Origin: Bacteroidia bacterium
GTDB taxonomy: Bacteria > Bacteroidota > Bacteroidia > Bacteroidales > Prolixibacteraceae
Assembly: GCA_026391315.1 (NCBI GenBank)
Contig: JAPLDT010000078.1
Location: 1-38,923 of the forward strand
Length of the DNA: 38,923 nt
Reading direction: 5' to 3'
This document shows positions 16,004 to 25,328 of this stretch, one piece after another. The notes below the pieces were generated by a model. That model searched no databases, was not told where the DNA came from, and saw only the letters and a program-made list of their open reading frames with translations. A program made the position numbers and the translations under genes. Numbering within the stretch: the stretch's first letter is position 1; each line of letters begins with the position of its first letter.

Positions 16004-16006
16004 AAT

Positions 16007-16452
16007 GATGAATTTCACCACAAAGGGAAACTCAAAGGGCACTAAGAATCTGTTTAAAATTTGTTTTTTGTCCCGTTAGGGCAATGTCATTGAAATTAAG
16101 AAAAAATTATGCGACTCTCAACAGATTGCTTCTCCGCCAGCCGGCGGATCGCAATGACGAAGCAATTTATTGATAATCAAGCAAATATAAAAAATTGTCA
16201 TTGGTAGGAAGTACGACGAAGCAATCTATTGATTATATGCGAATTATGAATTTGTGTTTTCTTAACTTAATGACATTGCCCGTACAGGACGGAATTTAGA
16301 TCTTAATCCATATTCTACCGACATTATACCCCTAACGGGACAAAAAGCAAGTTTTAATACAGTCTCTAAGTATTGATTTTAGACTTTGTGACATCCTTTG
16401 TGACACCCTTCGTGTCCTTCGTGGTGAAATTTTATGTCATCCAAAATTCATC
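16007..16452. repeat. Five concentric inverted repeats (nested palindromic element)
   Basis: Outer to inner: GATGAATTT 16007-16015 with AAATTCATC 16444-16452, and AATTTCACCAC 16011-16021 with GTGGTGAAATT 16421-16431; TTTTTGTCCCGTTAGGG 16065-16081 with CCCTAACGGGACAAAAA 16330-16346; GGCAATGTCATT 16080-16091 with AATGACATTGCC 16269-16280; TTAAGAAAA 16096-16104 with TTTTCTTAA 16257-16265; AGATTGCTTC 16123-16132 with GAAGCAATCT 16218-16227. The innermost part holds a CCGCC..GGCGG hairpin of the dispersed GATTGCTTC repeat type. No gene is seen in the 560-base gap before bL31B. Confidence 0.85.
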
Positions 16453-16483
16453 ACTTTTCAAACGATAACTTTTTATTAATCTG

Positions 16484-16769: not shown

Positions 16770-17068
16770 AAAGGATAAAGGATAAAGGATAAAGGATAAA
16801 GTAAAAAGGATAAAGTAAAAAGGATAAAGTAAAAAGGATAAAGTAAAAAGGATAAAGTGAATAGTGGAAAGGATAAAGGATAAAGTAAAAAGGATAAAGT
16901 GGCATTGGTAGTAATGGGGAAATTCGATTCTTCAGGGATAATTAATAACCACTTCGCGGTTGGGAAACGCACTATGGTATTGCTTCAAAAAAAATGTAGC
17001 CAAGCGGCATAAATATTCAATTTCGTACAAATCCCCCTTTATCCTTTTTACTTTATCCTTTATCCTTC
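16770..17068. repeat. GGATAAAG word element, copy 1
   Basis: Tandem GGATAAAG and GGATAAAGTAAAAA words at 16771-16902. A 31-bp arm (16869-16899) is perfectly complementary to 17037-17067. Between the arms, GGGGAAATTCGATTC and an ACCACTTCGCGGTT hairpin are shared with copy 2 at 29618-29796. The gap between bL31B and lon (about 430 bases) contains no other convincing gene. Confidence 0.85.
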
Positions 17069-24846: not shown

Positions 24847-25098
24847 AGATTGCTTCTCCGCCAGCCTGCGGAGCGCAATGACGGAGGGTTATATTGAGTT
24901 GTGAGAATGCGACAGATTGCTTCCCGCTCGTTCCTCGCGGTCGCAATGACGGATCATTTTTTTGGAGGTGAGGGTTGAGAGAAGGGGGCGGGTCATCAGT
25001 TTTCGGTAGTAGCAGAATTACCGCCCGCCTCCTTCTCTCAACCCTCACAGGATCAACAGCATACCGTCATTGCGAGGAGGCACGACGAAGCAATCTGT
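24847..25098. repeat. Nested GATTGCTTC-type repeats with an inner 18-bp inverted repeat
   Basis: ACAGATTGCTTC (24912-24923) and AGATTGCTTC (24847-24856) are complementary to GAAGCAATCTGT at 25087-25098. Inside lies GTGAGGGTTGAGAGAAGG (24968-24985) paired perfectly with 25031-25048, with G-rich/C-rich extensions. A further half unit GAAGCAATCTGT stands at 25212-25223, touching the tex relic. This is the same dispersed family as at 16123-16227. Confidence 0.8.
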
Positions 25099-25228
25099 TG
25101 ATTTACAGTTAAATATGCAACATGTCTATTGTTCAAACATTCGTAATTATAGTTGCCGCACAATCACTTTTTGACAGTTTTGAAAAGTCTGTCATTGGTA
25201 AGTGGTGTGACGAAGCAATCTGTTTATA

Positions 25229-25328
25229 TAACTTTGCCTCAATGCGAAAAGAGAAGATTCAACAGTTGATTGCCACCATTGCCAGGGGAAAAGGGTTGGA
25301 GTACTTGGCCGAAACACTGATGGATTAA
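25229..25328 (+). pseudogene. Decayed copy of the tex 5' end with an internal in-frame deletion
   Basis: TAACTTTGCCTC-ATG-GAAAAGAGAAGAT matches the tex promoter box and start at 27471-27503. From ATG 25242, 28 codons read MRKEKIQQLIAT then IARGKGLEYLAETLMD and stop. These correspond to the first 12 codons of tex fused to codons about 117-132. In real tex the 7-mer GCCACCA occurs at 27514-27520 and 27826-27832, exactly at both ends of the 312-base segment missing here (104 codons, in frame). Nucleotide differences from tex show that this is an old copy, not an assembly slip. Confidence 0.85.

Follow-up and report, generated by a model that had tools for sequence, protein, structure and literature searches.

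A large concentric palindrome between a GNAT gene and an L31 gene of a Bacteroidia bacterium is very probably built from four unrelated, non-autonomous repeats nested in one another, with unit B lying in unit A, unit C in the REP-hairpin core of B, and unit D in C. The window, by which we mean the whole stretch of 38,923 nucleotides analysed here, comes from a draft genome of 111 contigs, and a TATCTTTGCA-like promoter motif, together with the repeats, presumably points to Bacteroidota.

Architecture of the palindrome

The original prediction described five independent pairs of complementary arms in concentric order. All pairs are present at or near the predicted positions and are concentric, but they are not five independent rings. 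What had been counted as the third and fourth rings are two parts of a single arm (16082-16104 pairing with 16257-16278, with a slip of one base), and this arm forms the terminal repeat of C, a single element. There are therefore four units, A, B, C and D from outermost to innermost: A is of the CACCAC type, B of the GTCCCGTTAGGG type, C has the ends CAATGTCATTAAGTTAAG, and D is of the GATTGCTTC type. The arms and features are as follows.

16004..16463: whole insert, from the GNAT stop codon to the conserved stretch before L31, delimited by comparison of congener gaps; right edge approximate
16006-16015 with 16444-16453: outermost arm pair, TGATGAATTT
16006..16042: left part of unit A (TGATGAATTTCACCACAAAGG...), ACCAC outside, in the orientation of solo copy L316
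16011-16026 with 16416-16431: arm pair AATTTCACCACAAAGG, 94% complementary
16043..16045: left target duplication of B, TAA
16046..16366: unit B, 321 bp including C and D, with ends GAATCTGTTTAAAATTTG and CAAGTTTTAATACAGTCTC
16054-16081 with 16330-16357: second-ring arms, 93% complementary
16070..16081: REP-type hairpin of B, GTCCCGTTAGGG, directly left of C
16072-16081: candidate left target copy of C, 7 of 10 bases in common with 16279-16288 by eye
16082..16278: unit C, 197 bp including D; left arm 16082-16104, right arm 16257-16278 matching the end pattern exactly
16082-16091 with 16269-16278: arm pair CAATGTCATT
16093-16104 with 16257-16268: arm pair TTAAGAAAA, 92% complementary
16118..16232: unit D, GATTGCTTC / GCAATGACG repeats
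16118-16132 with 16218-16232: innermost arm pair TCAACAGATTGCTTC, 93% complementary
16279..16341: right part of B, with hairpin CCCGTACAGGACGG at 16279-16292
16313-16328: spacer TTCTACCGACATTATA in the right part of B, GTAG-type on the other strand
16329-16341: hairpin CCCCTAACGGGAC in the right part of B
16367..16369: right target duplication of B, TAA
16384-16433: right part of unit A (CTTTGTGAC...CCTTCGTGGTGAAATTTT), within 16384..16453
16444-16453: outermost right arm of unit A, AAATTCATCA

As each unit is itself roughly palindromic, the arms become concentric once one is placed inside another, and no selection for the overall shape is needed.

An insert absent from related genomes

The GNAT gene has orthologues in the genus, where it is likewise followed by the L31 gene. 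The gap between the two genes is 562 bp in this genome, compared with 84-219 bp in all seven congeners (G001, 104 bp; G002, 116; G003, 115; G004, 119; G005, 219; G006, 130; G007, 84), and none of units A-D was seen when these seven gaps were read by eye. All seven congeners thus represent the empty site, and the block between GNAT and L31 is an insert. In a search of 41 genomes, in which up to 16 candidate places per genome were scored, the full-length block occurred in this genome only, and no piece of it lay on a contig with a GNAT orthologue among the matches listed. Relatives therefore do not carry the five rings as one constant block, the pattern that would count against nested insertion. 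The seven congeners lack the block altogether, and neither a partial nest nor any other intermediate stage was seen there.

The same comparison bears on a second reading offered by the original prediction, that of one large structured RNA. The predicted fold of a 450-nt block covering the arms (16006-16453) is very strong: -149.1 kcal/mol, compared with -90.3 +/- 6.4 in 100 shuffles (z = -9.13), none of which came as low. However, a strong fold is a trivial consequence of nested palindromes, the block is missing from this place in all seven congeners, and at the gathering threshold Rfam matches the window only in a tRNA that lies elsewhere. The seven congeners show no conservation of such an RNA at the locus, and a structured RNA as the explanation of the block is extremely improbable.

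Just downstream of the nest, the L31 gene (16566-16679) encodes 37 amino acids instead of 87, through an in-frame loss of 50 codons. A family search for L31 reported one gene in each of the seven congeners and none in this genome, where the short copy was missed too. The shortening may be a real loss or an assembly error. Shortly after this gene, repeats of the AAGGATAAAGTAAAAAGGATAAAG kind at 16770-16910 face an inverted copy at 17037-17067 (within 16770-17067).

Unit B: REP-like hairpins between IS5-like ends

Elsewhere, B is a MITE of about 200 bp with ends GAGACTGTTTAAA and 3-bp TNA duplications. A solo copy of 181 bp used as query gave 11 copies in its own genome, itself included, with 143-181 bases covered at 91-100% identity. 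The B end GAGACTGTTTAAAATTTG occurs 38 times in this genome, 8 times in G001, 13 in G006, 7 in G007 and 5 in G004, and is absent from G002, G003 and G005; with the backward control, no genome gave more than one. An identical 3-bp duplication, TNA in every case, flanks 17 of the 32 two-ended B elements in the fetched loci, compared with agreement in 190 of 992 mixed pairs when the left and right flanks of different copies are combined. The window copy (16046-16366) has kept its duplication, TAA on both sides.

According to the accessible part of PMC12016507, TNA duplications are the mark of the IS1031 subgroup of the IS5 family, one member of which, ISLrh, has ends (GAACCTGTCTAGTATCT) that resemble those of B (GAGACTGTTTAAAATTT). 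Unlike that subgroup, B has no matching transposase between paired ends in the fetched loci, so that the kinship is one of ends and duplication only. An autonomous partner, sought there up to 2.5 kb, was not found, and the longest B-end pair spans 542 bp.

The interior of B points to a different class of repeat. Solo B contains three hairpins together with GTCGGTAGAA-type spacers, and a Y1 gene of the same genome (C34:4416) sits among GTCCCGTAGGGACGTAATATTGGTAGAAA units, that is, it is flanked by repeats of the same kind as B's hairpins. These hairpins are thus REP-type, whereas the ends of B are of transposon type. The C34:4416 product scores 72.7 with the NCBIfam IS200/IS605 model (cut-off 55) and 34.2 with REP_Tyr_transpos, under its cut-off of 80; the Y1 transposase family has 11 matches in this genome, 10 of them above cut-off. 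The hairpin and GTCGGTAGAA units of B, like the arrays beside this Y1 gene, recall the GTAG- and CGTC-tagged REPs that accompany RAYT genes. They differ from these in being enclosed in a MITE with transposon ends, although REP dimers within longer palindromes are mentioned in the portion of that source available (PMC3733652).

Several further associations of this kind were seen. At least 7 of the 11 Y1 (RAYT-like) genes or fragments in this genome lie, by eye, among hairpin repeats of their own kinds (L117, L118, L119, L122, L123, L124, L126), and the Y1 at C87:24797 is a fragment (86-aa frame) adjoining an array of about seven units. A B-family element on the same contig (L134 1700-2025, G000:C87) is bracketed by a facing pair of REPs, TTTTCTACAATACTTTATCCGCTACGCGGAAG, similar to the ones next to the C40 Y1 gene.

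The position of B in the loop of A has a parallel at C111 (L005), where the loop of a further A-type hairpin holds another B flanked by a TAA duplication. In an inverted-repeat test, 6 of 31 B flanks scored above 99% of mixed-pair controls, while 4-13% of random intergenic TNA sites (three control sets, two of them themselves repeat-rich) also lie in comparable inverted repeats. This is not clearly above the local background, and a hairpin preference is therefore not claimed for B.

Window B shares with the copy at locus C58 an irregular hairpin order, which calls for a fused variant or an extra rearrangement. An alternative is that the outer rings arose by replication template switching at inverted repeats, an arm being copied to its mirror image, rather than by insertion. 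In its favour, window B carries hairpin and end sequence to its left and right in mirrored order, which the usual solo copy does not, and at some loci C or B is represented by a single arm. The rings are, however, accounted for directly by independent solo elements, by the target duplications of B and by complete IS with C ends, and we consider template switching unlikely.

Unit C: a MITE with IS4-type ends

With up to 3 mismatches allowed, the C end pattern CAATGTCATTAAGTTAAG finds 20 arms in this genome and none in a backward control, and an exact scan of the genome collection for C ends returned at least 118 stretches. Among the matches listed, complete elements with C ends occur in other bacteria (L216, L218, L246, L267, L271); they are 1467-1691 bp long and have perfect 10-bp duplications. 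Both transposases tested (L218, from Aquimarina, and L216) match DDE_Tnp_1. With the IS4 model NF033592 (cut-off 115), L218 scores 157.6 bits and L216, read from an internal start, 109.5 bits, under the cut-off.

These features resemble those of the IS4 subgroup, for which the available text of PMC2266710 gives direct repeats of 10-13 bp, a DDE transposase gene and an element of 1400-1650 bp. By eye, the C ends fit every conserved position of the subgroup pattern -AATR--------WTW---- in Table 1 of that source, the right window arm exactly. Duplications of 9-10 bp are found in 29 elements with C ends (matches listed plus L136), including a clean 10-bp duplication in the congener copy L136. In contrast to the IS4 subgroup, window C is 197 bp long and geneless, and its two flanking target copies agree at 7 of 10 bases by eye, a mismatch that is also evidence against the nested-insertion reading. 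Window C is a MITE with IS4-subgroup ends and not an IS.

The IS4 model has 23 matches in 6 of 8 genus genomes, the one in this genome being a 132-bp fragment, and no C-end pair was present in the 12 genus loci examined for an autonomous partner of C. At one further locus (L127, G000:C49:33812), a single C end is followed by the REP-like hairpins GACTCCTCCGGAGTC and CGACCCCTGGCTGGGGTCG.

Target preference of C

To describe the targets of C, we used the 29 elements (among the stretches listed, plus L136) whose 9-10-bp duplication shows no more than one mismatch, leaving out end pairs without such a duplication; because some come from the same genome or genus, the 29 are not fully independent. 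A strong stem-loop (score of at least 14) is present at 9 of the 29 empty sites, compared with 3.8% of 16,376 intergenic control positions in the same loci (p = 8e-7). When ranked within their own locus against intergenic positions, 8 of the 28 sites with enough intergenic sequence fall in the top 5% (p = 5e-5). Against all locus positions, 10 of 29 do so, and 19 of 29 fall outside, including three of the five complete elements. By a centred palindrome score, four or more of the 5 inner pairs were present in 7 of 29 targets, compared with 1.8%; as many of the hairpins are off-centre, this score was replaced by the stem-loop score. C prefers hairpin targets, as a preference and not a rule.

Inspection of individual loci shows the range of these targets. 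By eye, C lies at the near-end hairpin of B in the window and at C58 and C46, at B's central hairpin at C48:103842, and at its end hairpin, in the other order, at C29. It also lies at a REP resembling the ones next to the C87 Y1 fragment (C104) and at a REP in another species (G001, L143). Hairpins adjoining C arms in this genome are of the REP kind and belong to more than one REP family. The motif CC[CG]N2-6[CG]GG directly adjoins C in 12 of 29 arm flanks in the genus (11 of 21 in this genome, 1 of 8 in relatives), although some of the hairpin-flanked C arms of this genome belong to copies of a single composite and are thus not independent. Sites without a hairpin include C10, C25 and C49 in this genome, and L136, L137 and L141.

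The mobile unit targeting hairpin loops that the original prediction had envisaged is thus recognisable in C, as a preference, and not clearly in B, which was tested as well. The behaviour of C resembles that of ISRm22 (an IS4 member), ISPsy8, IS621 and ISPpu9, IS elements reported to use REP palindromes as insertion sites, with ISPsy8 entering the hairpin at its axis of symmetry (PMC1525189). It differs from these in that C is a MITE, that only part of its copies are in hairpins, and that its target here is a REP hairpin inside another MITE, the result being a concentric palindrome.

Units A and D

A is a dispersed hairpin. In relatives, A-type arms form hairpins mostly with ACCAC at the loop, whereas the solo copy L316 has the window orientation, with ACCAC outside; several A copies are single arms. 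A-type hairpins also lie inside C ends at C10 and C25 in this genome and in relatives, so the order of nesting is not fixed: C encloses D in the window and an A-type hairpin elsewhere.

For D/E repeats, 61 of 92 match places form 40 clusters in this genome. A C end (up to 3 mismatches) lies within 600 bp of 10 of these clusters and is lacking at the other 30; five of the latter run up to the end of their contig, and decayed C ends may be present at a few. D-type copies read CGTCATTGCGAG, comparable to the CGTC-tagged REPs, defined by a CGTC tag, an 8-9-bp stem, a 4-5-nt loop and a short tail; CGTC repeats are described in Bacteroidetes without a dedicated transposase (PMC3733652, part available). 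D is a REP-like repeat and may belong to the CGTC-tagged group. At 24847-25229 the window has a second nested block, in which D-type GATTGCTTC repeats enclose the hairpin GTGAGGGTTGAGAGAAGGGGGCGGG / CCCGCCTCCTTCTCTCAACCCTCAC.

Assembly of the nest

The central idea of the original prediction, nesting of separate palindromic units, is supported. B, A-type and D/E repeats each occur elsewhere without the others, the nesting order varies, B has retained its target duplication, and the block is missing from congeners.

Where the nesting took place is a separate matter. One possibility is that it all occurred stepwise at the window site, A being followed by B, C and D, as the concentric order and the surviving B duplication would allow. 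However, a composite of B, C and D with both B ends is present at three loci with differing flanks (TAA/TAA in the window, TAA/TAA at C58, TTA/TTA at C46), and the right half of the window copy is 91% identical to that at C58, with which it shares the irregular hairpin order. Combined with the lack of any intermediate among the seven congeners, this makes fully on-site assembly quite unlikely. As the composite exists at two other loci, part of the nesting is probably older than the arrival at the window site.

The preferred account is thus one of nested insertion with a composite intermediate. Transposases supplied in trans would have moved both B and C. Most likely, C, already carrying D, entered the hairpin core of B elsewhere, presumably because of its preference for hairpins, and the ready-made composite would then have moved via the ends of B into a spacer bearing A. 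No function beyond mobility is required to account for the nest.

Significance

Two elements of this picture are already known: the targeting of REPs by IS, including an IS4 member (PMC1525189, in the part available), and the mutual insertion of small repeats, published for BOX, RUP and SPRITE of pneumococcus (PMC3049150). The units here belong to other families, and the accessible portion of the pneumococcal account contains no concentric palindrome. A literature search covering nested MITEs, REP targets and these sequences returned related reports, but none of a C-end family choosing hairpins and none of the concentric arrangement.

The hairpin preference of C helps to explain how the stack built up, and its target rule is open to bench test. 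Several unrelated MITE families, and not just those of IS4 type, might favour hairpins or loops, making palindromes mutual landing pads. We consider this conceivable but rather doubtful; if true, nests would grow by self-reinforcing insertion and spread as composites via their outermost intact ends.

The locus also urges caution, as a spacer can have a very strong predicted fold without encoding a functional RNA. It links REPs, IS4-type MITEs and IS5-type MITEs, which are usually treated apart, and suggests a route to long concentric palindromes in bacterial spacers, in which a hairpin-favouring MITE enters a REP hairpin in another MITE's core and the two then travel as a composite.
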